A stretch of 64,000 nt of DNA, taken from NCBI GenBank assembly GCA_004347695.1, contig SLTK01000009.1, positions 444,328 to 508,327 on the forward strand. Direction: 5' to 3'. The notes below the pieces were generated by a model that worked only from the letters and a program-made list of their open reading frames with translations, did no database searches and had not been told where the DNA came from. The translations under genes were made by a program, and so were the position numbers. This DNA is from Chloroflexota bacterium. GTDB taxonomy: Bacteria > Chloroflexota > Anaerolineae > Anaerolineales > Anaerolineaceae. Positions 46,040-63,187 of this stretch are shown here, one piece after another; the first letter of the stretch is position 1; each line of letters begins with the position of its first letter.

Positions 46040-48400
46040 TTACATCTGCGCCAATTCTCCGGTAGCCAGCCTGGCTATGCGCATCCAACGTGCTGATGTT
46101 TCTTGCCAGCCGGAAACGTTCATCTGCTGGGCCATTTCAGCATAGATCTTTGCGTAAGCATATATCTTTTCCCGGTCATGAATGAAGGTGTAACTTTCTC
46201 CAAGCAGATGGATAATTTCGAGCATGGATACTGCTGGAATTTGTATTTTTGCACCAATTTCTTCGGCTTCCTGCAACACCGCAGCCGCCGTGGCATAATC
46301 CGATAGACCGATCGCCTGCCTGGCAGCAATTACCGCCCACCGGACGAATGCTTCAAAATCGCTAGAATTGCGATAATGGTAAAGGATCCGGGAAGCTGCC
46401 CTTTCACCGCGCTCCTCGATCAATTTACGCGCCATTTTCCGATGCAACAGCGCTCGAGCCGGGGGCAATATCATTTCATACACCGCCTGTTGAATCAGGT
46501 GATGGCTAAATTCAAATTCATGTTTTTTAGGAGGTGCATTGACTTCGATAATATGCGCGGCTACCAATTCCTCAAGATCTTTAAAGATAGGCTGCTCTTC
46601 ACGGCCAAGGATCAACTGGACCTCATGGACATCAAAGTAGGTTCCTATCACTGCTGCTGCCTGGATTGTTTCGACCGCTTTTGCGCCCAGCGGCTGCAGG
46701 CGCGCTTCAATGAGTTGTTGAATGGAGGTCGCCAAGGGCAGACGCAGTGGACCGGTTTTCATGATTGGCCCTTCCCAGGTGACATTATCTGTTCGCAGTT
46801 TCCCATCACCAATCAGCGCGCCCAATGTTTCACGAATAAATAAAGGATTCCCCAGAGTTTTGTTATAAAGCGCATCCGCTAACCGTTTTGCATTTTTTGC
46901 CCCGCCCGAAGCCGAGATGATCCATTGAGAAACATCCTCGGGCAATAAATTGCTGATCATTATGTCGCGAACCAGATGGTCGCGGCGCAATCGAACAAGC
47001 GAAATGGTTTGATTGATCAACTGCGTCGTGTCCGACGAGATGGTTAGAATGCATACTTTCTGATTGGCGCCGGTTTGAACCGACAGCAAATATCGCACAA
47101 GAAATTCCAACAAGTGAAAAGTGGATTTGCTCGCCCAGTGGATATCATCCAAAACGAACAGAATGGAGACTGATTTACTGATGGTACTGACCACATTGCA
47201 AATTGCTGAAAATATTTGATTCTGATCCAACTGTTGCGTGCCAGAGATGGTCTTTATCCCAAAAACATCAGCCAATTCCGGCACAAACCGCGAAATTTCA
47301 GCCGCTTGCCATTCCGGAATGGAGGCGCGAACAGCAGGTGGGATGTTGGAGATCAGATCCAATAAAGCCATCCGAATTGAAAAATGAGGTACGCCCTGCC
47401 CAACCGGTAAGCAACGACCCCAACCAATAGAAACCCCCGTTGACTGCAACCGCCGTACGAACTCCTGGGCCAGACGGGTCTTGCCAACCCCCTGTTCACC
47501 TTTAAGCACAGCCACCATTTCACTGCCCTTTTCCCACCACTCCGTCAGGCTTTGATATTCCCTTTCCCGCCCAAATAAACCGGTGTCTTCGAGATGTTTT
47601 TCACTGGCGATGGATTGGTGGCGCAGGCTCTTTTCTAATGTCTCAGGGGATAAGGACCCGGTAACTGGCTCAGTGTATGTGATCCTTTCATCTAATATGG
47701 ATTGATATAGACCGCGAGTTTCTTCCGATGGATCAATATTTAATTCTTTGCGGAGCAGGCGCACGCAATCATTGTATTGTTCAATCGCCCCCGATCGGTT
47801 CCCAAGGTGGTAATGGGCAGTCATAATTGCCCGGTGAGCGATTTCATTCAGCGGATCAGCTTTCAATAGCAATCGGCTGGTCTCCATAGCCCTGGTGAAA
47901 CGATTACCGCTCAAATAATGGGTGATAAGTTTGGTCAGCGCTCTTAAATAATAAGCTTCCAGCCTGTAGCGTTCTTCCAGACACCAATCTTCATACACAT
48001 TGGAAAGAAAACTCCCACGGTACAGGTCGATGGCGTTTTGCAACATCTGCGGAGATGCCTGAGTCGCTGCTTTTTCAAATTCCGGCACATCCATCCAGCA
48101 TTCCACCTGCGGCGTCCAGGTGACTGTGCTGCTCGTCGTGACCAAAAAATCATCAGGGTTTAGACCTGTCTCCTTCAAGACTGATCGGATTTGCCAGAGT
48201 GCTGTATGCAAACTGCGGCGCGCATTGACACGCGGACGGTCTGGCCAAAATAATTCGGCCAGGTGCTCCCGGCTCAATTCTTTTCCAGAATGAACGGCCA
48301 GATAGCCCAATAGCCCCACTGCTTTTTGGGTCGGCAAGACAGGCAATATGTTTCCGGCGACGGATAACTGTAAAATTCCCAACAACCGGATCTGCAGCAC
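46040..48400 (-). CDS. BTAD/SARP-type transcriptional activator with AAA ATPase domain
   Basis: A 786-residue regulator. Residues 1-95 form an OmpR-like winged helix (LGYLAVHSGKELSREHLAELFWPDRP, ARRSLHTALWQIRSVL). Residues about 100-240 are the BTAD helical domain (DLYRGSFLSNVYEDWCLEERYRLEAYYLRAL, NEIAHRAIMTAHYHLGNRSGAIEQYNDCVRLLRKEL). An AAA_16 module follows with Walker A GEQGVGKT (301-308) and Walker B LFVLDDIHWA. It stops after a short helical tail, without the long TPR region of many relatives. The start is GTG at 48400. It diverges from the glycan cluster and is a natural candidate for its activator, but this is inferred from position only. Confidence 0.9.
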   Translation of the reverse strand: MLQIRLLGILQLSVAGNILPVLPTQKAVGLLGYLAVHSGKELSREHLAELFWPDRPRVNARRSLHTALWQIRSVLKETGLNPDDFLVTTSSTVTWTPQVECWMDVPEFEKAATQASPQMLQNAIDLYRGSFLSNVYEDWCLEERYRLEAYYLRALTKLITHYLSGNRFTRAMETSRLLLKADPLNEIAHRAIMTAHYHLGNRSGAIEQYNDCVRLLRKELNIDPSEETRGLYQSILDERITYTEPVTGSLSPETLEKSLRHQSIASEKHLEDTGLFGREREYQSLTEWWEKGSEMVAVLKGEQGVGKTRLAQEFVRRLQSTGVSIGWGRCLPVGQGVPHFSIRMALLDLISNIPPAVRASIPEWQAAEISRFVPELADVFGIKTISGTQQLDQNQIFSAICNVVSTISKSVSILFVLDDIHWASKSTFHLLEFLVRYLLSVQTGANQKVCILTISSDTTQLINQTISLVRLRRDHLVRDIMISNLLPEDVSQWIISASGGAKNAKRLADALYNKTLGNPLFIRETLGALIGDGKLRTDNVTWEGPIMKTGPLRLPLATSIQQLIEARLQPLGAKAVETIQAAAVIGTYFDVHEVQLILGREEQPIFKDLEELVAAHIIEVNAPPKKHEFEFSHHLIQQAVYEMILPPARALLHRKMARKLIEERGERAASRILYHYRNSSDFEAFVRWAVIAARQAIGLSDYATAAAVLQEAEEIGAKIQIPAVSMLEIIHLLGESYTFIHDREKIYAYAKIYAEMAQQMNVSGWQETSARWMRIARLATGELAQM

Positions 48401-48591
48401 GGGTTTACCCTATGATCCCAAGAAATAATTATCCTGACCTGACTTTTACCAATTGTTAATCAAATTGTAACATTAATGCCTTGCAAATTTACAATCATCA
48501 ATCTCTTTTATCAATTTTTTACTGATTTTTGCAGTCTTTTTGCACCTCCCCGCTTATGCTTACATAGACAAGGCAGTAGAGAGGGTGTCTT

Positions 48592-48843
48592 ATGGAATTT
48601 TTATCGAAGCATGAGTTAAGTTCTTTTGTGATTCGATTGTGGAATGATGACGATCGCGGTCACTGGCGCGGTCATATTACACACATTCAAAGCCGCCAGG
48701 GTTGTTATTTCCTTACCTTAAGCCAGATGGAAGACTTTGTTTCGAGATTTTTTTCGACCATGCAAGAAGAAACCTTACAGGTCACCCAATCAACCACCGC
48801 TACACCTGATCTGCTTGGCAAAAATGTAAAACCCGGGGTTTAG
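48592..48843 (+). CDS. Small conserved-looking hypothetical protein
   Basis: An 83-residue soluble protein. The first 58 residues (FVIRLWNDDDRGHWRGHITHIQSRQGCYFLTLSQMEDFVSRF) look like a compact alpha/beta domain. The tail is Thr/Gln-rich and probably flexible. I recognise no named family. AGAGGG lies a few bases before the ATG. It is the first gene of the plus-strand cluster opposite the BTAD activator, so it could be a small regulator or target of it. Confidence 0.7.
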   Translation: MEFLSKHELSSFVIRLWNDDDRGHWRGHITHIQSRQGCYFLTLSQMEDFVSRFFSTMQEETLQVTQSTTATPDLLGKNVKPGV

Positions 48844-48935
48844 GAGCAAAACACCTTGTAGGACGGGAGAATTTTGTAAGCAGGATTTCGGACTTTATCG
48901 TTAATTATGAGTAATAAGGATGTTAGGAGGGTGAT

Positions 48936-50282
48936 ATGGAACACTTGATTAATATTCAGAACCAATTAGCCCAAAAGGCTAATTTGTCCAATAGCACGTC
49001 ATTTCTTGATGGCGCTACCCTTGAAAGCGGGCTTCTTAATATTTATCGGCAGCGCCCGCGTGTCTCTGTCATAATTCCAACTTTAAATGAGGCCAAGAAT
49101 CTACCGCTGGTCTTGCCATATCTACCATTAGCCTGGATCGATGAGGTGATATTGGTGGACGGCCGCTCCACCGACAACACCGTAGAGGTTGCCCGCACAC
49201 TGCTTCCTGCCATTAAAGTTGTGATGGAGCAAAAGAAGGGTAAAGGCGCAGCCATGAATGCCGGCTACCGGGCTGCGATCGGTGAAATTCTGATTGTGGT
49301 AGATGCTGATGGCTCCAATGATCCTCGCGAGATTCCGCGTTTTGTCCAGGCACTAATGATGGGCGCCGATATGGTCAAAGGCAGCCGGTTTGCACACGGG
49401 GCTGGCACCACCGACATGCCTTTCATCCGGCAGCTCGGCAATCGTTTCTTCACCATCACCTGCAATGTACTGTTTGGCACCCATTGGACAGATTTGTGCT
49501 ACGGATACCATGCATTCTGGCGACATTGTCTGGAGGTTGTGGATGTTTCAGACACGCCTGGCTTCGAGATCGATACTGCGCTTTACCTGCGGGCTGCGCG
49601 CGAACAATTGCATGTGACTGAAGTACCAAGCTTCGAAGGCTACCGCTTTTTCGGGATCGGTAAACTTCAGACTATTCCAGACGGTTGGCGGGTATTAAAA
49701 ACGATTGTTCACGAACGTTTGAAGAAAAGACGCACACCGGAATCCAACCGTTATCTGGGATTCCGTGGACTCCAGCCAGTTTTGGAATACGCCGCAGCGC
49801 CAAACGCTATATCCGCTCCGGAGGTTAATTTACAACTGCTCCGCACCATTGGAATGATCTTATCTGCCGGCTACAGTTTGAATGAGCTCATGACACAGGT
49901 TTTGCACCTTTCGCTCCAGGCGATGAACGCTGTAAGCGGTAGTCTGCTCATCCTGGATGAAAATGGCCAGGTGGCGAATGTTTGTATGGTTTACGGCGAC
50001 AAAAAAGTATCCGCATCAGAAAAAAACGTGTCGGAATTGCTGGACCAGGGTGTGGCAGGCTGGGTCTTGCGCAATCGGAAGCTGGCGCTCATAGCCAATA
50101 CCAACGAAGATCCCCGCTGGCTGCCGCGAACCTGGGAACAGGATATGCCGCGCTCGGCAGTAGCAGTCCCGGTCGCGCTACAAGACTGCCGTTTGGGCAT
50201 TTTAACGCTGGTACGCTCGCAGGAACATCAGTTCACAACGGATGATCTGAAAATACTGGAAAGCCTGGCAATGCCAGCATAA
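48936..50282 (+). CDS. Family 2 glycosyltransferase fused to a GAF domain
   Basis: A 448-residue protein. Residues about 40-270 are a GT2 (GT-A fold) domain: SVIIPTLNEAKNLPLVLPYL, ILVDGRSTDNTVEVA and the metal-binding VVDADGS (Asp123/Asp125). It is of the dolichyl-phosphate-sugar-synthase-like type. Residues about 300-448 form a GAF-like sensor domain (LSLQAMNAVSGSLLILDENGQVANVCMVYGD, GVAGWVLRNRKLALIANTNEDPRW). A GAF fused to a GT2 is uncommon and suggests a small molecule or redox state controls sugar transfer, which is inference. AGGAGG precedes the ATG. Confidence 0.87.
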   Translation: MEHLINIQNQLAQKANLSNSTSFLDGATLESGLLNIYRQRPRVSVIIPTLNEAKNLPLVLPYLPLAWIDEVILVDGRSTDNTVEVARTLLPAIKVVMEQKKGKGAAMNAGYRAAIGEILIVVDADGSNDPREIPRFVQALMMGADMVKGSRFAHGAGTTDMPFIRQLGNRFFTITCNVLFGTHWTDLCYGYHAFWRHCLEVVDVSDTPGFEIDTALYLRAAREQLHVTEVPSFEGYRFFGIGKLQTIPDGWRVLKTIVHERLKKRRTPESNRYLGFRGLQPVLEYAAAPNAISAPEVNLQLLRTIGMILSAGYSLNELMTQVLHLSLQAMNAVSGSLLILDENGQVANVCMVYGDKKVSASEKNVSELLDQGVAGWVLRNRKLALIANTNEDPRWLPRTWEQDMPRSAVAVPVALQDCRLGILTLVRSQEHQFTTDDLKILESLAMPA

Positions 50283-50305
50283 TCAGAGATTTATTGACTG
50301 AGATC

Positions 50306-51289
50306 ATGAATCCTTTTATAAATCAAATTTCCGTCATCGTTTGCGCGTATACCGAGTTGCGCTGGGACGATTTGCTCACCGCAGTTGACTCGCTGCGCGC
50401 GCAAACGCATCCTGCCAGTGAAATCATTCTGGTGATTGATCATAACCCAGCCTTACATGAACGTGCTCAGGCTCAGTTTTCGGATCTTTCCGTGGTGACA
50501 AATACTGAAAAACGCGGCTTATCCGGTGCACGCAATAGCGGGATAGCTGTTGCTCACGGGGATTTGATCGCCTTTATGGATGAAGATGCGGTTGCTGATG
50601 CTGAATGGCTGGAACATCTGAACGCTGGATTCTTGGATCCAAAAGTCATTGGAGTCGGCGGCGCAATCATTCCCTGGTGGATAGCAAAACAATCCGCCTG
50701 GTTTCCTGAAGAATTCAACTGGGTGGTTGGCTGCACTTATCGCGGTATGCCCGAGATTGCCAGCCCGGTTCGCAATTTAATCGGCTGTAACATGGCTTTT
50801 CGCGGTGAAGTTTTTAGCCAGGCCGGCGGTTTCCGCGGTGAGATCGGACGCGTTGGTACTTTTCCAGCCGGATGTGAAGAGACCGAATTGTGCATCCGGG
50901 CAAGCCAAATCCTACCCGGCCACATCTTCCTCTTCGACCCACATGCACAGGTACACCATCGAGTACCGGCAGCACGCACCAGCTTACGGTATTTCACCGA
51001 CCGATGTTTTGCCGAAGGGTTATCAAAAGCCCTTGTTTCACGTCTGGTTGGCGCTCAAGACGGGCTTTCTTCGGAGCGTTCTTATACTTTCAATACCCTC
51101 CCTCGTGGGGTGCTGCGCGGGCTGAAGGACGCGTTTGTGCATGGGAAATGGTCCGGTCTTGGCCGGGCTGGAGCAATCATTATCGGTCTGGGATTTACCA
51201 CTGCAGGCTATCTTGCCGGGCGGCTGATGTTGTTGCGAAATAAAAACAGATCAATCGCTTCGCAGAATTTATCGTTAGATCAGGCATAA
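50306..51289 (+). CDS. Family 2 glycosyltransferase
   Basis: A 327-residue GT2 enzyme with QISVIVCAYTELRWDDLLTAVDSL at the N-terminus, GARNSGIAVAHGDLIAFMDEDA (metal-binding DED at 92-94) and a second half with GCNMAFRGEVFSQAGGF and a C-terminal hydrophobic segment near residues 290-310. It probably adds a sugar to a lipid-linked glycan. The ATG at 50306 is preferred over an upstream TTG at 50294. It lies 23 bases after the GT2-GAF gene. Confidence 0.9.
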   Translation: MNPFINQISVIVCAYTELRWDDLLTAVDSLRAQTHPASEIILVIDHNPALHERAQAQFSDLSVVTNTEKRGLSGARNSGIAVAHGDLIAFMDEDAVADAEWLEHLNAGFLDPKVIGVGGAIIPWWIAKQSAWFPEEFNWVVGCTYRGMPEIASPVRNLIGCNMAFRGEVFSQAGGFRGEIGRVGTFPAGCEETELCIRASQILPGHIFLFDPHAQVHHRVPAARTSLRYFTDRCFAEGLSKALVSRLVGAQDGLSSERSYTFNTLPRGVLRGLKDAFVHGKWSGLGRAGAIIIGLGFTTAGYLAGRLMLLRNKNRSIASQNLSLDQA

Positions 51290-51311
51290 TTACTCAGGAG
51301 TTTTTGGATCC

Positions 51312-52481
51312 ATGACCATCACAGCAAGCAACGATACCCAGATTGAAATCAGCATGCCAGATAAACCGAACGCCCCATCGAACGCATTGGCGCCAAAATG
51401 GTGTGAATTTGACCTTCATGGAGTTAGTGCATTTCGCGTGGAAGCTTCCTCGGGGATTGCGACCCTCTTCAAGGACATGTTTCGCCCCTTCTTGTCAGAA
51501 GGATTGGAACATTTCGATCTAACCATAAGCGAAGCCTTTGAACCGTTGATCGACGCGGCCTACGGGGAAGCCCACGGCGAATCCGATTTTTACTATAACG
51601 ACCATGGCGTCTATATCGAAAATCTGGATGTCCAGGTTTTCGTGGATGAAGATAGTATGCGCTTGCACGGCAAGGGTGAATTACTGGTGATGGCAGTGCC
51701 GCTGATTGACCGGATAATGGTGCAGCACGGTGCAGCCATGCTGCATGCCATGACGGTGGATTACAAAGGCCACGGTATTCTCATGCCCGCCTGGGGCGGC
51801 ACCGGCAAGACCAGCACCATGTCGAAGCTGGTTAAGACCCCCGGGTTCTCCTTCATGGGTGACGATTGGACGTTCCTCACACGCCAGAGCAATTTGCTTG
51901 GCTTTGCAAAACCCTTGTTCATCAAACCGTACCATCGCACACTATATCCCCACCTGTTTGCAAAGACACACAAGCCTTTGGTTCCTGTGGCGCTTTCAAA
52001 GCCCATCTCGCGCCTGACCACCCGCATTCATCCTTACATTACCCGTTTCCCGCACATGGCTTCCTTGATCCGCAAATGGTCGCCTGAACACATGATGGTT
52101 CATCCAGATCAAGCCTTCCCGAATTCCCCAATTTCTAGCGGGGCTCCACTGGCAGCATCATTGTTTGTCGAGCGGTTCGAGGGCGACTCCACAGAACCAC
52201 AATTCTTCGAAAAAGATGCAAGGTGGATGACTACCAAGCTGATTGGGAATTTCTTCTCGGAACTGCCGCGTTATTCAAGGTTGGTCATGACCACCCTTGG
52301 CGCTTCAGGCATCATCCCCATTGAACGATCATTCGGCGAGAAAGAAGATATTCTGCTACAGGCATTGGCTGGAAAACCTGCTTTCTACCTGCGCGTCCCG
52401 CGCGCTTTTGGACCCGACCAGGCATCTGACATCATCGTCGAAACAATCAAAAACGTTGTCAAAGCAGCCGGGATCGGGTAG
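51312..52481 (+). CDS. HprK-like P-loop kinase-related protein
   Basis: A 389-residue soluble protein. The centre resembles the C-terminal domain of HPr kinase/phosphorylase: Walker A in MPAWGGTGKTSTMSKL (about residues 158-173), then FMGDDWTFLT (GDD at 183-185) as the likely acidic/catalytic loop, and FAKPLFIKPYH. The N-terminal 130 residues are unassigned. HprK-related proteins lacking an HPr partner occur in polysaccharide and peptide-modification clusters, where their substrates are unknown. It lies between glycosyltransferase genes, with 7 bases to the next start. Confidence 0.8.
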   Translation: MTITASNDTQIEISMPDKPNAPSNALAPKWCEFDLHGVSAFRVEASSGIATLFKDMFRPFLSEGLEHFDLTISEAFEPLIDAAYGEAHGESDFYYNDHGVYIENLDVQVFVDEDSMRLHGKGELLVMAVPLIDRIMVQHGAAMLHAMTVDYKGHGILMPAWGGTGKTSTMSKLVKTPGFSFMGDDWTFLTRQSNLLGFAKPLFIKPYHRTLYPHLFAKTHKPLVPVALSKPISRLTTRIHPYITRFPHMASLIRKWSPEHMMVHPDQAFPNSPISSGAPLAASLFVERFEGDSTEPQFFEKDARWMTTKLIGNFFSELPRYSRLVMTTLGASGIIPIERSFGEKEDILLQALAGKPAFYLRVPRAFGPDQASDIIVETIKNVVKAAGIG

Positions 52482-52488
52482 AGGCGCT

Positions 52489-53331
52489 ATGCTGCCCATC
52501 ACTGTTATTGTGCCGGTCCGTAATTCAGAGCATCTGGTCGAAGGTTGCCTGACATCGATCTTCAAGGCCAATCCGGCGGAAGTCATTGTAGTTGACGGCC
52601 TCTCGACCGACCGTACCCTGGAAATTGCGCAGAGATTCCCTGTCGTTATCATCTCTGACGGGGGCCAAGGGGTTCCAGCCGCGCGTATGATGGGAGTTCG
52701 CGCGGCTAGCAACCCAACCATCGGGCTGTTTGACGTCGATATCCGCATTCCTGATGGTGCTCTGGAAAACTTGTATAAACAATTTTATGAAGATCAATAC
52801 GATGCTCTCCAGGCAGGGTTAATCAGCTATTCCGGCCAGGGGTACTGGGGGCGAGCGCTGGTCAATCACCATAATAACGGGCGCAGCAAGCACTGGCCAG
52901 GTTTGATGGCGTCGTTATTCAGGCAGCAGGTGCTGCTCGATAATCCGCTCGATGTGCGTTTTCGTTCCGGTGAGGACATCGAAATCCGCTGGCGGCTAAA
53001 GAATGCCGGATACAAGATGGGCGTATCCAGCACAACCACCGTCCAGCATTGGTTTGGCGACAGCTATGAGTTCGCCAAGGATCAATGGCTGCAAGACGGG
53101 AAAGGTCTTGGCCGAATGGTTGTCAAGTACGGCCTGCGTGCCCTCCCTCTGATTGGCATTCCGCTGGTTGGCGCTGTGCGGGGAATTTTGTTGAGCCTGA
53201 CACACCTCCAGCCTCGATGGATTTTGTATTACCTGGGTTACTTCCTATATAACTACACCTCCATCTTCAGCGGCCTGACAGAACGCCTGATAAAACCAGA
53301 ATTGTGGATGCAATCCGGGGCCAGTCAATGA
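52489..53331 (+). CDS. Family 2 glycosyltransferase
   Basis: A 280-residue GT2 enzyme: LPITVIVPVRNSEHLVEGCLTSIF at the N-terminus, EVIVVDGLSTDRTLEIA, and GLFDVDIRIPDGALENL with the metal-binding DVD. FRSGEDIEIRWRLKNAGYKMG is the acceptor/ED-type motif of the family. The ATG at 52489 is chosen since longer in-frame starts lie within the HprK-like gene. A C-terminal hydrophobic stretch may associate it with the membrane. The flippase gene overlaps its stop (ATGA). Confidence 0.9.
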   Translation: MLPITVIVPVRNSEHLVEGCLTSIFKANPAEVIVVDGLSTDRTLEIAQRFPVVIISDGGQGVPAARMMGVRAASNPTIGLFDVDIRIPDGALENLYKQFYEDQYDALQAGLISYSGQGYWGRALVNHHNNGRSKHWPGLMASLFRQQVLLDNPLDVRFRSGEDIEIRWRLKNAGYKMGVSSTTTVQHWFGDSYEFAKDQWLQDGKGLGRMVVKYGLRALPLIGIPLVGAVRGILLSLTHLQPRWILYYLGYFLYNYTSIFSGLTERLIKPELWMQSGASQ

Positions 53332-54752
53332 AAACCGGGCAAATTCATAAACGGATGAATAATCTAAGCGCCTCCCATGAGTTCCCGCAAAACGGAACCC
53401 GGCGCGCCCGGGGTTTATTCAAGCTATGGGACAACCTAAACCTGGAGAAACGGGAGGAATATTCTAGATTTTATAACTCCGGCACGCTCATATTGGGTCG
53501 TGTGGCCGCCTCGGGATTGGGCTACCTCACCTGGCTGATTACCGCCCGGTTGTTTGACGCCCGCGAGGTCGGCATTGCCTCCGGTATCGTCTCCGCAATG
53601 ATGCTATGCGTCCAACTGGCCCTGTTTGGCATTGGGGCAGCGGTCATCAAAACTTATCCGCTCCACCTCCAATCCCCTTCAAGAATGATCAACACGGCGC
53701 TTAATTTGATCGCAGCGGCGTCGTTGGCAACTGCCGCGTTATTTCTGATCTTTGCCAGAGTCTTTTTCAACGAACTTAACGTCGTCAGCGCACTCCCCCT
53801 ATATGCGCTTCTCTTTCTTGGGATCAATATCTTCGGCGCGATTAATGTGTTGATGGATCATGTCTCCATCGCAATCAAACGCGGCGATCAGGTCCTGACA
53901 CGCAATGTACTTTTCGGCCTGGTCACGATTGCTGGAGTGGCAGCTTTACCGCTTCTGGCGGAAACGACCACCTCGATCGCCATCGTCTCAGCCTGGGCTG
54001 CTGCAGGCTTTTTCGCCTGCCTTATCGGCGCCATTCAAATATTCCGTTCAATCCCGTCTTACAGTTACACACCGGCGATCGAAAAGGAGACTGCCAGACA
54101 ACTAATCGGAATTGGCCTGCCCAACTACTTGTTGACGCTGGCGGAAAGGGCGCCCAATTGGATTCTGCCAATCATCATCACCGAAATGCTCTCACCGGTC
54201 GAAAATGCGCGCTGGTACGCCGTTTGGATGATGGCCTGGGTTGTATTTCTCGTACCCATCTCAGTCGGGCAGAATTTGTTCGCTGAAATTTCGCACCAGC
54301 CAGAGAAATTCCGCCGCCCACTACGCCTTAGCTTCCGCAACTCACTGGTTGGTGGCCTGGTCGCGGCCATTCTGGTGATCGTTTTAGCGCCTTTCATGCT
54401 CGGTCTGCTCGGCAAGGATTATGCGGCCGCCGGCACAACCCCGCTACGCATTCTGGCGTTGGCAATCCTACCTATTACTGTGATTCAGATGTACTACGCA
54501 GTATGCAGGGGTACTCAACGTTTGGGGGAAGCAACCGTCACCGGGCTTGCCAGCGGCGCGGCTGGCATTGCCGCTGCCACCTTGGCGGGTATCCAATATG
54601 GATTGACCGGCATGGCTGTTGCCTGGCTGACAACTCAATCGATTGCAGCCGTTTGGGCCGGGTTTCGTATTGCCGTGTTCATGCGCCACTCAGATCAAAC
54701 CTCTGCCAGGACCGAGAATCCACCCGATTCGTCGTCCCAAAGCAGCAGTTGA
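53328..54752 (+). CDS. Polysaccharide flippase (MOP superfamily, Wzx-like)
   Basis: A 474-residue membrane protein with about twelve to fourteen helices starting near residue 50, after a basic cytoplasmic N-terminus (KREEYSRFYNSGTLILGRVAASGLGYLTWLITARLFDAREVG). This first-helix pattern is typical of the polysaccharide-transport/MOP family that flips lipid-linked glycans across the membrane. The C-terminus is Ser/Thr-rich. Start at the ATG overlapping the upstream stop. With three GT2 genes upstream it supports an exopolysaccharide or surface-glycan pathway. Confidence 0.9.
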   Translation: MKTGQIHKRMNNLSASHEFPQNGTRRARGLFKLWDNLNLEKREEYSRFYNSGTLILGRVAASGLGYLTWLITARLFDAREVGIASGIVSAMMLCVQLALFGIGAAVIKTYPLHLQSPSRMINTALNLIAAASLATAALFLIFARVFFNELNVVSALPLYALLFLGINIFGAINVLMDHVSIAIKRGDQVLTRNVLFGLVTIAGVAALPLLAETTTSIAIVSAWAAAGFFACLIGAIQIFRSIPSYSYTPAIEKETARQLIGIGLPNYLLTLAERAPNWILPIIITEMLSPVENARWYAVWMMAWVVFLVPISVGQNLFAEISHQPEKFRRPLRLSFRNSLVGGLVAAILVIVLAPFMLGLLGKDYAAAGTTPLRILALAILPITVIQMYYAVCRGTQRLGEATVTGLASGAAGIAAATLAGIQYGLTGMAVAWLTTQSIAAVWAGFRIAVFMRHSDQTSARTENPPDSSSQSSS

Positions 54753-54894
54753 GGGCGAGGAAAATCGATATGGCAGCCTGTCTGAATGCGCGCAAATGTG
54801 AAGGTCGGGGTGGAAGCAGTCCCTCCATTACCGGCCAGCATCCTTTATTCGTTTCCAAAACGAGATACTTTAATATTACCGGGAGATTGTAACG

Positions 54895-56229
54895 ATGAAA
54901 ACAAAATTGTTACGGGCACTCATCATCAGCACCTGCCTGTTGGCGCTTGGCTTTACTGCTCCAACCAAAACATCTGCCCAGGGTGATGTTGGTTACAAAG
55001 ACTTTGGTTACGGCACAGCCGTTGCCCCAACTGCCGATAAGCCCCAGAGCAAATTGTGGTATCACGATGGAACCTGGTGGGGCGTGCTGTATAATTCCAC
55101 ACCCGCGATAAAGCAGCATCAAATCTACCGGTTTAGTTGGGCCAATCAGTCCTGGACCAGCATGAATGTTGCTGTGGAGGGGCGGTTGCGCGTGACCTAT
55201 GATGTTCTTTCCGATGGCGATAATTTATATATCGCATCGGCCGCTGATATTCTTGGGAGCGAAACAGAAACGTATATTAAAATTCAGACCTTTTTGTATG
55301 ACCCTAACCAAAAGACATATTTCCTCAGCAATACCAGGCAAATAACCAGCAACGCCCTTGAAGCCGTGGTCATCGATAAAGACACCACCGGCAGGCTTTG
55401 GCTCACTTACACGGATATCGGCCTTAACCTGAATAAGAATGTGTTTGTCACACACACCAGCGGAGATACACCGAATTGGGTAACGCCTTACGTTTTACCG
55501 GTCACCCCGGGGGCAGCCGACAATTTAAATAATGACGATATTTCAACTCTGGTTGCCTATACCGAACCAGGGGCTCCGCCAAAGCCAAAGATTGGTGTGA
55601 TGTGGAGCAACCAGACGAATAACGCCGTGTATTTCGCCTCTCATATCGATGGCAACAATGATCAAATCTGGACGATGGTCCCTGCGCTTTCCGGCCCCAA
55701 TTATGCCGATGACCATTTAAACATCAAAAGTCTGCAAGCCGATTCTGCCGGACAGGTATTTGCGGTAGTGAAAACATCCCTGAATTCCGTTTCCGTCCCT
55801 GATCCTGGACAGCCGTTGATTATCTTGCTAACGCTGGAAAATAGTGGAAGCTGGAGCCGACGCACGGTAAGCCAGGTAAAGGACAATCACACCCGTCCGA
55901 TCCTCCTGATCGACGAACAAAACCGTCAGATTTACGTTTTCTATACTTTGTTAATTGGAGCGCAGACGACCGGGCATATTTATTACAAACAAGCCAGCCT
56001 GGACGTCCCTGGCACGCAATTTCCAGACGGCGCAGGGACGCCATTTATTGCGCTTGCCAACGACACGCATATCAACAATGCTTCCTCGACCAAGCAGGTC
56101 TTGAATGGAACGATGGATTTGTTGGTCATTGCAAGTGATGATACTGAAAAATCGTATTATCACAATGTTATCGATCTTGCTCCATCGTTTACCCAGTACA
56201 AGGTGTTATTGCCGTTGATCATGAGGTGA
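54895..56229 (+). CDS. Secreted beta-propeller-like protein with C-terminal LPLIMR motif
   Basis: A 444-residue protein with a signal peptide (residues 1-29, cut likely after TSAQ). The mature part has repeated strands of the type KLWYHDGTWWGVLYN, IYRFSWANQSW, GRLWLTYTDIG and PKIGVMWSNQTNNAVYFASH, suggesting a six- or seven-bladed propeller of the sialidase/BNR type. Enzymatic residues were not identified. The last residues, YKVLLPLIMR, match a hydrophobic-basic ending common on exported Chloroflexota proteins. It lies inside the glycan cluster, 142 bases after the flippase gene. Confidence 0.8.
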   Translation: MKTKLLRALIISTCLLALGFTAPTKTSAQGDVGYKDFGYGTAVAPTADKPQSKLWYHDGTWWGVLYNSTPAIKQHQIYRFSWANQSWTSMNVAVEGRLRVTYDVLSDGDNLYIASAADILGSETETYIKIQTFLYDPNQKTYFLSNTRQITSNALEAVVIDKDTTGRLWLTYTDIGLNLNKNVFVTHTSGDTPNWVTPYVLPVTPGAADNLNNDDISTLVAYTEPGAPPKPKIGVMWSNQTNNAVYFASHIDGNNDQIWTMVPALSGPNYADDHLNIKSLQADSAGQVFAVVKTSLNSVSVPDPGQPLIILLTLENSGSWSRRTVSQVKDNHTRPILLIDEQNRQIYVFYTLLIGAQTTGHIYYKQASLDVPGTQFPDGAGTPFIALANDTHINNASSTKQVLNGTMDLLVIASDDTEKSYYHNVIDLAPSFTQYKVLLPLIMR

Positions 56230-56434
56230 CATGGGGACTCTAACTAAAGCCCATGTTACACTTATCCCAGCAGCCAGAGTATCGCATACCGCAACCAGAG
56301 CTGTACGTTGTCCCACTTAACCAAGCCTGTTCTGGTCTACATGTTTCACACTCAGTACCATCCTTACTGGATAAAGATTTCGGCACAAACCGCGAAGAAG
56401 GTTGCGAAGCCTATTCGAGCAACACGGTAAAAGC

Positions 56435-58351
56435 ATGACAGAGCAAACCCAAAAACCTGTGGAAAGAAAGCTAATGGCGCAGGCGTCAGCCGAGCCGCTG
56501 CGCCTCAGGCGGTTGCCCCAGCCGGGAGCTTCTTTTCATGCTCTGGAGCTGGTAAAAACCTGGATAAAAAAATGGCAACCCTCCCAGGTTCTGCCAATAA
56601 TATTGATCATCATCGGCAGTGCGGTCTGGTTGTCTTCCCTGTCACAGGTCAAGGTGGAGCAGATGAACGACCTGGGGTTGGTATCTGTCATACCGCCTAC
56701 TGGCTGGATTGCGCTTGCGCTGCTGGCGGTCAGCTTCAGCCTGGTTTTGACCGCACAAAAGGTCAATTCTGTCTTAATTTTTTTCCACATGGCCATCCTG
56801 GTTTTCATGCTGTATGGAATAACCGCAATCGTGGAGACCGTGCCGCGTTTTGGGCCTTCCTGGCGCCATGCGGGAGTCATCGATTACATCTTACGCAACG
56901 AAAATGTGAATCCCCGTATCGATGCGTATTTCAACTGGCCAGGTTTCTTCATTATGGGCGGTCTGATCACCCAAATTGCCGGCCTGGATAGCGCCGTATA
57001 TTTCCTCAAATGGTCCCCCTTCTTTTTCCAACTGCTCTATATGGGACCGCTGTGGATGATCAACAATTCACTGACCAGTTCGCGGAGGCTGGTTTGGTTC
57101 GGCATCTGGGTTTTCTACCTGGTCAATTGGGTCGGACAGGATTATTTTTCGCCCCAGGCAATGAATTTCTTTTATTTTCTGGTCATCCTGGCCATCTTAT
57201 TGTGCTGGTTCCGGTCTTCGGAAGTCACTATACCCCGGCTGGTAAATGGGAAATTGCTGCAGAAAATACCGAAAATTCAGGGGGTTATTACGCGGGTGTT
57301 TACCAGTGAGAAGGCGCCACCCGTACCCACATCACTGACGCAAAAGACTTTTTTCCTGCTGATGATGGTGATGATTTACTTTGTCAGTGTCACCAGCCAC
57401 CAACTGACCCAATTTGCCATCTTGTTTTCTGTCCTCCTGCTCCTGATCTTCCAGCGAATTACACCCAAAGCCCTGCCAATTATCATGCTGGTTCTCAGTG
57501 GAATGTGGATCGCCTACATGGCCAGCGCCTTCATGGCCGGGCGATTGAAAGGCATGCTCGAAGCGTTCGGGCAGCTTGAAACGGCGTTGGATGCCAACCT
57601 GGTCAATCGAATGAACGGCAGCCCAGGGCACATGGTCGTTACCCAACTCCGTTTAGGGTTAACCCTGGGCGTCTGGCTGGCAGCCATGCTCGGGTTCATC
57701 CGGCAATGGATACGCGGCACGCTGGAAACCAGCGCAGCATTGCTGGTGGCAGCCCCCTTTCCTCTGCTGATCATGCAGACCTACGGCGGCGAGATGTTGA
57801 TGCGCATCTACATGTTCTCGCTGCCGCTGGCAGCATTTCTAGCAGCAGCACTAATTTTTCCAATCATCAAAGAACCGCCGTCATGGCGCTACACAGTAGC
57901 TGTGGGCCTGGCAAGCGCGGTTTTACTGGGGGTGTTCTGGTTTGGCAGATATGGTAATGAACGCATGGAATATTTCACCCCAGCCGAAGTGGATGCGGTC
58001 GAATTCATTTACCAACATGCAGAACCCGGATCATTAATTGCGACTGTGACTACCAATCTACCGTATAAATATATCAATTACGAAAAATATAAGTACGTAA
58101 AGCTTGAAAAAGAGCTGGTTCTGGGCGATATGGTCTCGTTGTTTACCACACTGAAGAATCCAAAATACGATCATGCTTATTTGCTGCTCACCCGTGCTCA
58201 AGAAGCGTATGTCGAAATGTACTACGATCCTGGACTGATCGATTTCGAGAAACTCGAGAACCAATTGCTGCTCGATCCGCAAATCAAGGTGATCTACACC
58301 AACCCGGATGCAAAAATACTGGAGATTACCAATCGCGAGGCTATCCCATGA
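56435..58351 (+). CDS. Large polytopic membrane protein, glycan polymerase-like
   Basis: A 638-residue protein: a basic cytoplasmic N-terminus, about twelve to fourteen membrane helices (from residue 50 to 520), then a C-terminal soluble domain of about 120 residues starting EVDAVEFIYQHAEPGSLIATVTT. The first large external loop contains RNENVNPRIDAYFNWPGFF. The architecture fits a GT-C transferase or O-antigen polymerase-like enzyme, and position in the cluster agrees, but no decisive motif was found. The 205 bases in front hold no evident gene. Confidence 0.8.
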   Translation: MTEQTQKPVERKLMAQASAEPLRLRRLPQPGASFHALELVKTWIKKWQPSQVLPIILIIIGSAVWLSSLSQVKVEQMNDLGLVSVIPPTGWIALALLAVSFSLVLTAQKVNSVLIFFHMAILVFMLYGITAIVETVPRFGPSWRHAGVIDYILRNENVNPRIDAYFNWPGFFIMGGLITQIAGLDSAVYFLKWSPFFFQLLYMGPLWMINNSLTSSRRLVWFGIWVFYLVNWVGQDYFSPQAMNFFYFLVILAILLCWFRSSEVTIPRLVNGKLLQKIPKIQGVITRVFTSEKAPPVPTSLTQKTFFLLMMVMIYFVSVTSHQLTQFAILFSVLLLLIFQRITPKALPIIMLVLSGMWIAYMASAFMAGRLKGMLEAFGQLETALDANLVNRMNGSPGHMVVTQLRLGLTLGVWLAAMLGFIRQWIRGTLETSAALLVAAPFPLLIMQTYGGEMLMRIYMFSLPLAAFLAAALIFPIIKEPPSWRYTVAVGLASAVLLGVFWFGRYGNERMEYFTPAEVDAVEFIYQHAEPGSLIATVTTNLPYKYINYEKYKYVKLEKELVLGDMVSLFTTLKNPKYDHAYLLLTRAQEAYVEMYYDPGLIDFEKLENQLLLDPQIKVIYTNPDAKILEITNREAIP

Positions 58352-58776
58352 ACTGGAAAGGTTGGAACTGGAAACGCTGGGTTTGGCCGGGGGTGTTGAT
58401 ACTTTCGACTCTTGCGGTGTCGCTGGCTGCCTTTCAGAATTGGCAGTCGCCGCTGCGGCCTTTGATTACGCTCTGGTTCATGGCCGTTTGTCCAGGAATG
58501 GCCCTGCTGCGCGTCTTCGGGTTCCGGCTGGCGGCTGCTGGCTGGACACTGGCGATCGCCTTCAGCCTGGCCATCGATACAACGGTTGGGATTGCGCTGC
58601 TGTATTCCGGACGCTGGTCCTGGCAAGCCGGGTTGGTTATTTTGGCGGCCATCACAATTATTCCCACCCTCTTCGAGCCTTTCCTCAAACGGATTGAGGG
58701 ACCGCAGCCGTTGATCGTCGTCACAAAGGTCCCGGCGCATCCCAGGAAGCCCCGCTCTGCCGCCAAATCAGAATAG
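58348..58776 (+). CDS. Small membrane protein of the glycan cluster
   Basis: A 142-residue protein with four hydrophobic segments (residues about 10-28, 36-50, 56-84 and 91-108) and a basic C-terminal tail. No family recognised. Its ATG overlaps the upstream stop (ATGA), so it is translationally coupled to the polymerase-like protein and may be its subunit. Confidence 0.75.
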   Translation: MNWKGWNWKRWVWPGVLILSTLAVSLAAFQNWQSPLRPLITLWFMAVCPGMALLRVFGFRLAAAGWTLAIAFSLAIDTTVGIALLYSGRWSWQAGLVILAAITIIPTLFEPFLKRIEGPQPLIVVTKVPAHPRKPRSAAKSE

Positions 58777-58781
58777 AGCTA

Positions 58782-59015
58782 ATGATGTCAACGATTGTTT
58801 CAGAATTTACAACTCAACTGACTGTCAGTTCCAGCATGCCTGGCGTTATTGCGATCGGTTTTTTGATCGCCTTGCTGCTTGAAATTGAAATCATCCGCGC
58901 TTTCCGAAAAACTTCGTCTCAACCTGGAGTACGCGCATTGTCAACCGCTTTGGCGCCATTGGTCCTGGTATTTCTAACCTGGATGATCGTTCGGATCGTT
59001 GACCTCGTAAATTAG
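58782..59015 (+). CDS. Small two-helix membrane protein
   Basis: A 77-residue protein with two hydrophobic segments (about 18-36 and 54-75) separated by a basic loop (RAFRKTSSQPGVR). No family recognised. It starts 5 bases after the preceding gene; a second in-frame ATG at 58785 is equally possible. Its size and place suggest an accessory membrane subunit. Confidence 0.7.
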   Translation: MMSTIVSEFTTQLTVSSSMPGVIAIGFLIALLLEIEIIRAFRKTSSQPGVRALSTALAPLVLVFLTWMIVRIVDLVN

Positions 59016-59046
59016 CCTGCCCATTATTCCAAATGCTTATCCATCG

Positions 59047-59868
59047 ATGAAGAAAAACATCGTCAAAATCGATCCATTTTATAGTGAACTGGATGCTCTG
59101 ACCCGCATCACTCCGGCCAAAATATTGGCTTATCTGATTGCTTTTGCAGTTATCGAATTCCAGGCTGTCTGGGTCGAGCCCAAATTAAGTACGTTTTATT
59201 ACGGCTTCATCCTGGTTATCCTGCTTCACCATTACCTTTTTGCGAACGCCGATCCCAATCGTTACAAACTTCTCTTGCTCTCTGCCATTCCCTTGCTGCG
59301 GCTGATAAGCATGGCCATGCCGGTCGGTTTGGTAGAGCCATTGTACCGCTACCCGATGGTTGGAATTCCGATATTCTTATCCGTGGCGCTGATTTTAAGA
59401 GAGACAGCCCTGCCGTGGAGCCAACTGGGATTGCAACTTCCACCCATCCAGAAAACGGAACAGGTATGGGAAAACATCCTTATCGCTTTAAGTGGAATCC
59501 CATTAGGAATCATGGGATATTATTTTGCCGACCCAATCCCGCTGGTGACCACCCTCAATTGGGCTGAGATTTTCGCCTCGCTGCTGGTCGTCATCCTGTA
59601 TGTCGCCCTTTTGGAAGAAATTGTATTTCGCGGTATGCTGTTGCACGTCCTGGTTCACACCTTCGGGCTGATAGGGGTTATCTTCTCCACCATTATCTAT
59701 ACCGTGCTGTTTTCGAGCTATTATTCGATCCAAGGGATTATTTTGATGGGAGTTGCCAGCCTGCTTTATGGCTGGCATGTGCATGAATCGGGCTCCATCC
59801 TGGCAGCCACTATCAGCCATACTTTAATGATTGCGGGGATGGTTATTATCTGGCCAATTGTATTTTAA
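59047..59868 (+). CDS. CPBP (Abi/CAAX-protease-like) membrane protein with degenerate motifs
   Basis: A 273-residue protein with about eight membrane helices. The first CPBP motif EEIVFRG is intact near residue 190. The second (F-x-x-x-H) is replaced by LFSSYYS and the third retains only its His (ISHTLMI, without the following Asn/Asp). The family includes intramembrane metalloproteases and non-proteolytic members; loss of metal-binding residues suggests the latter. It is the last gene of the glycan cluster, converging on the nitrate reductase operon. Confidence 0.8.
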   Translation: MKKNIVKIDPFYSELDALTRITPAKILAYLIAFAVIEFQAVWVEPKLSTFYYGFILVILLHHYLFANADPNRYKLLLLSAIPLLRLISMAMPVGLVEPLYRYPMVGIPIFLSVALILRETALPWSQLGLQLPPIQKTEQVWENILIALSGIPLGIMGYYFADPIPLVTTLNWAEIFASLLVVILYVALLEEIVFRGMLLHVLVHTFGLIGVIFSTIIYTVLFSSYYSIQGIILMGVASLLYGWHVHESGSILAATISHTLMIAGMVIIWPIVF

Positions 59869-60572: not shown

Positions 60573-61880
60573 CTATGAAGGCTTGACAACGGCTGGGGTT
60601 ACCGCTGACATAGGCCTGAATGCTTTCTTCAGCACAAATGCCAGCGCCAATGCGACGATCCCAAAACCAACGAACAAGCCAAACCCGGCTGAATACCCGG
60701 CTGAACCCTGAACGGATACCATAGCGCCGAGAATGGGCGGAATGGTGAACCCGCCAAACGCTCCCAGTCCACCTACCCAGCCCGATGCGCCGCCGACCGC
60801 CTGGGGTACGTATTGCGGCACCAGCTTGAATACGGCTGCATTGCCAACGCCCATGCCCACAGCCATGACGATAGTCGCGAAAATCGAAAGCACAAAATTC
60901 TGCGATAACGTCATCAGCACCGCCCCGCCAAGCATGACCCATAAAGAGAGGATAGTAGTCTTCTCGCCACCCAGTTTATCGGCAATACGCCCGCCGAAAA
61001 CGCGCAATACCGAAGCGGTAATCGAATAAATGGCCGTCAACGTACCCGCAGTTACAGCCTGCAGACCAAAAAACTCGCGCCAGTAAGTGGGCAGCCATGA
61101 AGTCAAAGCAATAAAACCGCCAAAGGTGGTGAAGTAAATTGCCACAAGCATCCAGGTTTTCCACGTCTGCGCTGACTTGACCAGGCTATCCTTCAACTTG
61201 CCCTGTGGAAACATTTCCTGCCCATGCTGCCGGCCAATTTCAACGGCCTGCTCCAGTGTGTTTCCTTGCGCCATTGCCTGAAAATAGGGTGCGTTCCTGC
61301 CCGCGACCGCATAACCAAGCGTCCCAATTACCAGCAGGCTCAACCAGATCAGGTATGAACCGCTCATGCCAAAACTTACCAGCGCCAGCGGCAGCAAAAA
61401 GGAAAAAATTCCAGGAGCCAGATTACCAATACCCGCAAAAGTTCCCAAAGCTGTCCCCTGACGGGCTTTGGGGAACCAGTAAGAAACCTGGGCAATGCCA
61501 ACCGAAAACGTAGCGATTCCACAGCCGACCAACGCCCCAAGCACAAACAAAAGCGGCGTCATGGCCGGGGTCAGGCGATTGGGGTAAAACAACGTAATTA
61601 AAACTGCCAGGCCGATCATGCCGACGATGGAAGTGGTTAACAGGACCAGGAAGGGTTTCCGACCCCCGGCCGTATCCACCCAGGCAGCAAATGGAATACG
61701 CAGGAGCGACCCGGAGAGCGACGGCATCGCTACCAAAAACCCTACCTGCAGCGGGGTTAACCCCAGGGTCTGCTTAATGGCGGCTGCGGTCGGGCCAAAC
61801 AAAGCCACTGCAGCAAAACCGATAAAGAATCCAAGGGTTGCGCCAAACAAACCCTGTTGGGGTGTACCTCTGATTTTCAT
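60573..61880 (-). CDS. narK: Nitrate/nitrite transporter, NarK family
   Basis: A 435-residue MFS protein with twelve helices. NarK-type features are FFIGFAAVALFGPTAAAIKQTLGLTPLQVG near the N-terminus, a Gly-rich nitrate-signature helix (TFSVGIAQVSYWFPKARQGTALGTFAGIGNLAPG) with the conserved WFP, and a second Gly-rich segment GNAAVFKLVPQYVPQAVGGASGWVGGLGAFGGF. It imports nitrate or exchanges nitrite for the reductase encoded upstream. A good gap (11 bases) separates it from the FmdE-like gene. Confidence 0.95.
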   Translation of the reverse strand: MKIRGTPQQGLFGATLGFFIGFAAVALFGPTAAAIKQTLGLTPLQVGFLVAMPSLSGSLLRIPFAAWVDTAGGRKPFLVLLTTSIVGMIGLAVLITLFYPNRLTPAMTPLLFVLGALVGCGIATFSVGIAQVSYWFPKARQGTALGTFAGIGNLAPGIFSFLLPLALVSFGMSGSYLIWLSLLVIGTLGYAVAGRNAPYFQAMAQGNTLEQAVEIGRQHGQEMFPQGKLKDSLVKSAQTWKTWMLVAIYFTTFGGFIALTSWLPTYWREFFGLQAVTAGTLTAIYSITASVLRVFGGRIADKLGGEKTTILSLWVMLGGAVLMTLSQNFVLSIFATIVMAVGMGVGNAAVFKLVPQYVPQAVGGASGWVGGLGAFGGFTIPPILGAMVSVQGSAGYSAGFGLFVGFGIVALALAFVLKKAFRPMSAVTPAVVKPS

Positions 61881-61914
61881 ATACCTTTCCCTCCGCCCTC
61901 AGGGGCTTTCTTGA

Positions 61915-62484
61915 TTATGAATCCTGGCTATGCGCAGTTTTACTGGCAATTTTTTCGGCCAGGGCTTTCTTTTTTTGGATGGTGTAGCCGCTGGCAGTAC
62001 GGCCTTGCCGGCTGCTCCAACACAACACTTCAGTCAACGAATGCAGCAGTTCCGCCACGCCGACTGCCGCTGTGGCATAAAGGAAGATGCGAGTACCGGC
62101 TGGCACAACCAGCATCAATGTGACCAGTACGGCTGCCACCCAGGTACCTACGCAGGTTGGACAGCAGATGAGCTGCCCCATGGCCTGGCGAAATCCGGTT
62201 CCACGTGGGACAACTGCCTTGCCATCGCCCGAGTTGTCATCCACAACTTTGGTAAACGGTGCCCTTAAGGGGTCCATAATCCGGTCGAATGCGATCATGC
62301 GGCCTAACCGAAAAGTTGCCAGTCCGATCAAAATGAAGTCCAGCGCCGATAAGTCAAAAACTTTGATCCAGCCAACTTTCTGTTCCACCCAAAATCCAAG
62401 CAGCCCAAAACCAATAAGGAATATTACCGACAATAAAATTTTTGTGATGGTTTCCTGATTTTTAGCTCCCGGTTCCTGGGTCAT
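61915..62484 (-). CDS. DUF1360 family membrane protein in the nar operon
   Basis: A 189-residue protein with about three to four membrane helices. DUF1360 features are FILIGLATFRLGRMIAFDRIMDPLRAPFT and the cysteine pair motif MGQLICCPTCVGTWVAAV near residue 105. The function of the family is unknown. The ATG at 62484 with GAGGGAG in front is chosen over an ATG at 62541 inside narI. It lies between narI and narK, in place of narX/narL-type accessory genes seen elsewhere. Confidence 0.87.
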   Translation of the reverse strand: MTQEPGAKNQETITKILLSVIFLIGFGLLGFWVEQKVGWIKVFDLSALDFILIGLATFRLGRMIAFDRIMDPLRAPFTKVVDDNSGDGKAVVPRGTGFRQAMGQLICCPTCVGTWVAAVLVTLMLVVPAGTRIFLYATAAVGVAELLHSLTEVLCWSSRQGRTASGYTIQKKKALAEKIASKTAHSQDS

Positions 62485-62497
62485 TGCTCCCTCTTTT

Positions 62498-63187
62498 CTA
62501 CTGTGTGTTTTGTGTTCGAATTTTGCGATTCCACAGCACAATTTGCCATGGGCGAATTAAATAGCCAATGGGATAGGTGAAAATGTGAACCAGCCGCGAG
62601 AATGGAAAAATTACAGCCAATACAAAGTTATTGATCACATGCAGCTTGATGAGCCACGGCAGCGGCGCAACCAGATCCACCCGAGGGGTAAAGGTTGCCA
62701 GCGACAGCAGATAAGGCGAAAAGACGCCGGTGAACCAGTATGAGCCAAATCGGTAAAGCGTTGCAACCAGAACCCCGCTGATAACCGATACCAGCAGCGC
62801 CGCCAGTACAACCACATCCATCGGGGTAGTAACAACCTGCACCCTCCGCACCGTCACCCGGCGAAACACCAGGATCAGCAGACCAGCCAGCGACCACAGC
62901 CCAAGACCGAGACCAGTGATCTCGAGTAGATATAACCGCAGCGGGACAGCGTTCCACAACACTACGGACCGGGGTATCAATAACGCCAGCAAATGGCCCA
63001 ACAGTACGAGCACGATGCCGTAGTGGAAAGAGATGGAACCCCAGTACAGTTGTTTATTTTCCAGCAGTTGCGAAGAAAGGCTGGAAATGGAAAACGGCCG
63101 TATGATCGAGCGGTAAACGGTGACCACAACAAAAATAGTCAGGCTGATGTACGGCCAAATGACGAAGAAAATTGTGTTCCAGTCCAT
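62498..63187 (-). CDS. narI: Respiratory nitrate reductase gamma subunit (cytochrome b)
   Basis: A 229-residue membrane subunit with five helices that passes quinol electrons to NarH through two b hemes. The first heme-ligand pair is in SFHYGIVLVLLGHLLALL (10 residues apart) and the second in KLHVINNFVLAVIFPFSRLVH (18 apart), matching His56/66 and His187/205 of E. coli NarI. It lies 35 bases after narJ. Confidence 0.95.
   Translation of the reverse strand: MDWNTIFFVIWPYISLTIFVVVTVYRSIIRPFSISSLSSQLLENKQLYWGSISFHYGIVLVLLGHLLALLIPRSVVLWNAVPLRLYLLEITGLGLGLWSLAGLLILVFRRVTVRRVQVVTTPMDVVVLAALLVSVISGVLVATLYRFGSYWFTGVFSPYLLSLATFTPRVDLVAPLPWLIKLHVINNFVLAVIFPFSRLVHIFTYPIGYLIRPWQIVLWNRKIRTQNTQ

Follow-up and report, generated by a model that had tools for sequence, protein, structure and literature searches.

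What does a gene cluster assemble when its glycosyltransferase genes are interleaved with a gene for a protein resembling HPr kinase, and what would such a kinase act on? This question is raised by a 12-gene locus at 46040-59868 of the window (the whole 64-kb stretch of DNA analyzed here, from contig SLTK01000009.1 of a Chloroflexota bacterium of the family Anaerolineaceae, whose 3.3-Mb assembly has 14 contigs). The plus-strand genes span 48592-59868, and the gene for a BTAD-type regulator is divergent from them (46040-48400, minus strand). The core set consists of an AglJ-like family 2 glycosyltransferase (GT2), an AglG-like GT2, an HprK-fold protein, a third GT2, a flippase, a secreted protein, and one large and one small membrane protein. 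An original prediction, made from the sequence alone, described a surface glycan system gated by a GAF sensor and possibly by phosphorylation, with the BTAD protein as activator. All genes that it named are open and recognizable; the BTAD gene exists and is divergent, but it falls outside the span given for the cluster. Our best explanation, put forward tentatively, is an assembly locus for a polyprenyl-phosphate-linked surface glycan in the style of haloarchaeal agl N-glycosylation. In such a locus, the HprK-fold kinase would phosphorylate a glycan, sugar, or lipid intermediate, and the BTAD protein would switch the operon on.

Conservation of the Gene Set

When one genome per species was scanned, 50 loci with a relative were found, in Anaerolineae, Thermomicrobiota (with the set in part), Micrococcaceae, and a few other Actinomycetota. 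The scan required one of two short peptide patterns and is therefore biased to relatives that keep them; most rows are Micrococcaceae, and the counts take in loci at contig ends. By profile hidden Markov models, the HprK-like gene was found in all 50 loci, the third GT2 in 45, the flippase in 44, the large GT-C fold membrane protein in 41, the small membrane protein in 38, a calcineurin-like phosphoesterase in 37, the AglG-like GT2 in 35, the AglJ-like GT2 in 33, and the secreted protein in 22. The rarest elements were the GAF domain (5 loci), the BTAD regulator, an 83-amino acid (aa) protein, and a CPBP-type protease (3 each), and a 77-aa protein (2).

Gene order was evaluated outside the genus of the window's genome, using 49 HprK occurrences of at least 300 bits; eight with less than 6.5 kb downstream were dropped, leaving 41. 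The order HprK, GT2, flippase, GT-C, and small protein is kept within 7.5 kb in 32 of the 41, which argues that the arrangement is not due to chance. Among the nine exceptions, locus L101 keeps the order but with a longer insert; L107 and L146 lack all of these genes downstream of HprK. Within 7 kb upstream of HprK, also outside the genus, the AglJ-like gene was found in 24 of 39 occurrences and the AglG-like gene in 21. When the neighborhood is anchored on the HprK-like gene, the genes are found together in related genomes and also in distant ones, and the predicted glycan system is supported. Beside the first set, three Arthrobacter loci (L108 and L141, near 16.8-20.2 kb, and L110, near 15.7-19 kb) contain another HprK-GT2-flippase set in inverted orientation, which has an AglG-like gene of its own.

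In the HprK tree, the window protein groups with Anaerolineae and next with Thermomicrobiota, and most Actinomycetota rows are separate, which argues against recent transfer between phyla. The L107 protein (Actinomycetota) is on a long branch within the Chloroflexota/Thermomicrobiota side. Among 147 genomes of the family, full-length or near full-length HprK-like proteins occur only in three genomes of one genus (G000, which is the window's genome, G008, and G010), and the GT-C protein occurs in the same three. Any HprK-like match was seen in 15 of the 147 genomes, and those beyond the three cover the P-loop stretch only. The cluster is thus present in three of eight genus genomes. A full-length HprK match was found only in G000 among 400 genomes of the phylum. 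Genome G010 has a second, diverged copy of the locus (51-75% identical gene by gene); two strains are possible, because the two contigs of this copy have low coverage according to their titles and the assembly has approximately 6% contamination.

The HprK-Fold Protein

The HprK-like protein (51312-52481, plus strand) is a P-loop protein of the HprK/PEPCK fold and a predicted kinase, with 16.0 bits to Hpr_kinase_C (PF07475) and an E value of 9e-6 to HprK_rel_A. Membership in the classical HPr kinase/phosphorylase family was rejected because the PF07475 score is below the cut-off of 33.3 bits; the profile matched 4 of the 43 members at an E value of 0.1. The AlphaFold model (pLDDT 85.4, 43 sequences) has the HprK/PEPCK fold; it aligned with ATP-dependent phosphoenolpyruvate carboxykinase (PEPCK) 1yvy at Z 15.5 (root-mean-square deviation, rmsd, 4.7; 297 aligned) and with HprK/P 2qmh at Z 12.6 (rmsd 2.8; 143 aligned). 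The HprK alignment (A3) has 43 rows including the window, with 8 of 50 HprK rows left out; alignments A4 and A5 left out 3 of 38 and 1 of 20 rows, respectively. Residues H145, D184, and D185 are present in 43 of 43 members, and the Walker A residues K166 and T167 in 42 of 43. Alignment with 1jb1 was weak (E 0.74), and the Walker A lysine, the histidine, and the DD residues matched. The protein therefore resembles HPr kinase/phosphorylase and HprK-related families in fold and in these residues, but it differs from HPr kinase/phosphorylase by approximately 140 extra N-terminal residues as well as by its score.

A PEPCK-like nucleotide binder with scaffolding or another non-kinase role could also account for some of these features, as PEPCK gives the top Z score over 297 residues and classical HprK has a different N-terminal part. 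However, the nearly invariant Walker A lysine and threonine and the invariant H and DD residues point to phosphotransfer, which makes a non-kinase role very improbable.

HPr of the phosphotransferase system (PTS) was found in none of the three genus genomes that carry the cluster and in three of the five that lack it; 7 of 14 control genomes gave a match. HPr is therefore unlikely to be the target, and a phosphorylation gate, which had been suggested as a possibility, is unlikely in the HPr sense. Based on the fold, the conserved kinase residues, and the lack of a detected HPr, the family is probably a kinase with a substrate other than HPr. The constant place of the gene within the biosynthetic set speaks for a role in biosynthesis. 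HprK-like lasso-peptide kinases also sit inside biosynthetic clusters, but no lasso-peptide enzymes were recognized among the window products scanned. In the titles and abstract beginnings available from the literature, no HprK-like proteins in loci of this type were found.

Regulation within the cluster was considered as well: the HprK-like protein could be a protein kinase/phosphatase acting on the cluster enzymes or on the BTAD activator, with the GAF domain sensing a small molecule. This is consistent with the HprK/P fold and with the presence of GAF in both diverged genus copies and two further Anaerolineae. On the other hand, besides the HPr result, GAF is absent from 28 of the 33 loci with the AglJ-like GT2 and BTAD is absent from 47 of 50 loci, yet the HprK gene stays, and such a gate appears unlikely to us. 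All five loci with GAF on this GT2 are from Anaerolineae. GAF is a local accessory, and small-molecule gating through it was not supported as a defining property of the system.

We infer that the product carries phosphate from three features: the kinase-type residues, the constant place of the gene within the set, and a phosphoesterase that is frequent (37 of 50 loci) and may be the kinase's counterpart in many relatives. The L100 member of the phosphoesterase reaches the Pfam cut-off, and the L109 member misses it. Two Thermomicrobiota loci (L104, 18656-20494; L105, 8618-13780) encode large proteins that combine CBM96 and calcineurin-like phosphoesterase domains.

Proposed Glycan Assembly and the GT-C Protein

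The three predicted GT2 enzymes are present. The AglJ-like enzyme (48936-50282, plus strand; PF00535, E 1.8e-24) is polyprenyl-phosphate hexosyltransferase-like and has a C-terminal GAF domain (PF13185, GAF_2, E 1.2e-15). The AglG-like enzyme (50294-51289, plus strand) scores 224.7 bits to NF041394. The longest open reading frame (ORF) of the third GT2 (52489-53331, plus strand; PF00535) begins at 52297 with TTG, but a start at approximately 52489 is most likely because the L100 and L101 relatives begin at the equivalent position. The MOP-type flippase (53304-54752, plus strand) matches PF01943 (Polysacc_synt) with 38 bits (cut-off 28.2). No Wza or Wzc family was found among the ten window products scanned, in agreement with the original prediction (no search for them was made in the remainder of the genome).

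In the proposed pathway, a hexose would be loaded onto polyprenyl phosphate by the AglJ-like GT2, and the glycan would be lengthened by the other two GT2 enzymes (the AglG-like one and the third). The flippase would turn the lipid-linked glycan outward, and the GT-C protein and its small partner would transfer it to an extracellular acceptor, with the secreted protein of the locus as a candidate. The substrate of the HprK-fold kinase would be an intermediate in the pathway (sugar, glycan, or lipid) rather than HPr. The AglJ-like and AglG-like genes are neighbors, as is often the case for sequentially acting enzymes, and we count this in favor of the pathway. The roles of the archaeal Agl enzymes, beyond the profile names, are general background.

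The protein previously called polymerase-like is present (56402-58351, plus strand; 649 aa, no Pfam family) and is better described, from its predicted model, as a GT-C fold membrane glycosyltransferase. The gene for the small membrane protein follows it (58348-58776, plus strand). Foldseek matches of the GT-C model (pLDDT 78.9, 36 sequences) were DPY19, AglB, ArnT, and PglB. In VIA-align, the top structures were yeast Stt3 8agc (Z 19.8, rmsd 5.2, 423 aligned) and AglB 3waj (Z 19.1, rmsd 4.6, 401 aligned), followed by Pmt4 (Z 15.2), ALG12 (14.8), AftA (14.7), and ArnT (13.3). The predicted model has a GT-C fold with a C-terminal globular part, as in STT3/AglB/PglB, and D174 and D247 are invariant in all 36 members. 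None of the 36 members has an STT3- or PMT-type Pfam family, and the PF02516 match of the window's genome sits on a different contig (C10). No match emerged when the family profile was compared with one MFS protein and one flippase, or from a PDB sequence search with the family.

The GT-C protein might instead act on a polysaccharide destined for secretion. With polyprenyl-phosphate hexose serving as single-sugar donor, in the manner of ArnT or AftA, it would polymerize or decorate this chain, and secreted CBM96 and GH16 proteins would bind and trim the exported product. The ArnT and AftA matches, one weak EpsG match (E 0.017) among the 36 members, and the CBM96, Ig-like, and GH16 secreted proteins in relatives' loci favor this exopolysaccharide export. 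Against it, the highest structural similarity is to oligosaccharyltransferases (although Z depends on size), and an MOP flippase suggests oligosaccharide transport. We consider it possible but somewhat doubtful. The product may sit on protein or may be a free polysaccharide; the GH16 and CBM96 proteins in relatives' loci leave room for the latter.

The secreted protein itself (54895-56229, plus strand; 444 aa) belongs to no family, and a PDB sequence search gave weak PUF-domain matches only. In relatives, the protein is often longer and goes on with Ig-like and CBM96 domains. Within the genus, the secreted proteins terminate in LLPLIMR or LYLPIVVK (C-terminus of 54895-56229; L099, 13420-14757), which we take to be a possible sorting tag; a CPBP protease gene is in the same locus. 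In L101, a pectate-lyase-like beta-helix protein (8592-9950) is inserted between the AglG-like and HprK-like genes.

Compared with haloarchaeal agl (AglJ, AglG, AglR, AglB), the window locus shares AglJ-like and AglG-like GT2s, a flippase, and an AglB-like fold. Loci of the window type differ by adding the HprK-fold protein, the small membrane partner, and often the phosphoesterase. Several results weigh against assembly of a phosphorylated glycan in the agl style. The GT2 scores are below curated cut-offs: the AglJ label (TIGR04182) was not accepted for the first GT2 (115.3 bits, cut-off 325), nor was AglG (NF041394) for the second (cut-off 440). By eye, a WWDYG-type motif is absent from the aligned C-terminal stretch of eight GT-C members, and hhalign found no similarity between the GT-C family and one STT3 and one PMT-like protein. 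The GH16, CBM96, and pectin-lyase-like neighbors in relatives fit a secreted polysaccharide too. The phosphoesterase was found in none of the eight genus genomes, in a search run without a positive control. The absence of HPr is possibly due to chance, because the three metagenome-assembled genomes are incomplete (91-94% complete). Given the lack of a PF02516 match in any of the 36 members and, by eye, of the WWDYG-type motif, STT3 membership was not accepted. The GT-C protein is oligosaccharyltransferase-like in its predicted fold and outside the STT3 family.

Predicted Regulation of the Locus

The BTAD protein is a regulator of the Streptomyces antibiotic regulatory protein (SARP) type with an AAA ATPase (AAA_16). 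It matches PF03704 (BTAD) with 96.8 bits (cut-off 22.1), and its N-terminal OmpR-type winged helix is a weak match (Trans_reg_C, 25.7 bits; cut-off 26.2). Among the eight genus genomes, an orthologue is present only in the three with the cluster, and in each it adjoins the cluster and is divergent. Between the divergent genes is a predicted SARP operator with a -10-like hexamer, TTTGCAG-N4-TTTGCAC-N8-TTATGC (48528-48559, plus strand), in which 8 bp recur exactly at offset 11. An identical layout is seen in the diverged copy in G010 (TTTGCAC-N4-TTTGCAC, 8 bp, TTATCC). With both strands considered, the window has no other TTTGCA-N5-TTTGCA. An 8-bp run at offset 11 was reached by 21 of 5000 dinucleotide shuffles for the window and 6 of 5000 for the G010 copy. 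The 11-bp period matters to this argument, because 76 of 1000 shuffles of the window region reach such a run when any offset of 7-24 is allowed.

In SARP promoters, 11-bp direct repeats end 8 bp before the -10 element, according to the available part of a published account (PMC10936776). The predicted operator has this repeat and spacing, with the -10 element taken as the TTATGC/TTATCC hexamer only. These features support the BTAD protein as activator, and in this genus it would turn the operon on through the operator with the 11-bp period. BTAD plus AAA ATPase and the operator layout resemble AfsR-type large SARPs; unlike these, the window regulator is at a Chloroflexota glycan locus and is paired with an 83-aa protein.

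The 83-aa protein (48592-48843, plus strand) belongs to a Chloroflexota family linked to BTAD regulators and shows no noteworthy Pfam or NCBIfam match. At E values up to 0.01, a count that takes in weak matches, 39 of 400 genomes of the phylum have a relative. A BTAD-type ORF lies no more than approximately 1.5 kb away in 18 of 29 loci of relatives (the window's own excluded), compared to 0 of 48 control loci fetched with HprK-like and STT3 queries. The other 11 loci have no BTAD match, and in several the flanking ORF is TPR-like by eye. The pairing of BTAD-type genes with this family elsewhere in the phylum, apparently without the glycan cluster, goes in part against the original prediction, and the two look like a reusable regulatory module. 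BTAD is a local accessory found in this genus only (3 of 50 loci). The family (48592-48843; L176-L204) has a WRGxIxHxxSG-type motif and is a possible partner or co-regulator of SARPs.

Accessory and Flanking Genes

Two small membrane proteins had been predicted, and two are present, the GT-C partner and a 77-aa protein (58782-59015, plus strand) detected only in this genus; the 83-aa first plus-strand product does not look membrane-bound. The last gene encodes a CPBP-type (Rce1-like) intramembrane protease (59047-59868, plus strand; PF02517, 40 bits, cut-off 22.4), which among the 50 loci occurs only in Anaerolineae. The right flank (60573-63187) has an MFS transporter gene and a nitrate reductase gamma-type gene. 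The MFS orthologue is restricted to the three cluster-bearing genus genomes, so co-occurrence within the genus may reflect a subclade and not linkage alone. Left-flank genes differ between genus copies of the locus.

Biological Significance

The locus could represent an undescribed class of bacterial phosphoglycan assembly shared by Chloroflexota and Actinomycetota, although we regard this as rather uncertain. In it, an HprK-fold kinase with a carbohydrate or lipid substrate would phosphorylate polyprenyl-phosphate-linked glycans, and a new oligosaccharyltransferase-like GT-C family with a small membrane partner would transfer them. HprK-fold proteins outside the PTS gain a concrete, testable pathway context. 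Because culturable Arthrobacter strains carry the GT-C family, which lacks a Pfam model, its chemistry is accessible to laboratory tests. Two further predictions concern Chloroflexota: a SARP operator, and a small protein that partners BTAD regulators across the phylum.

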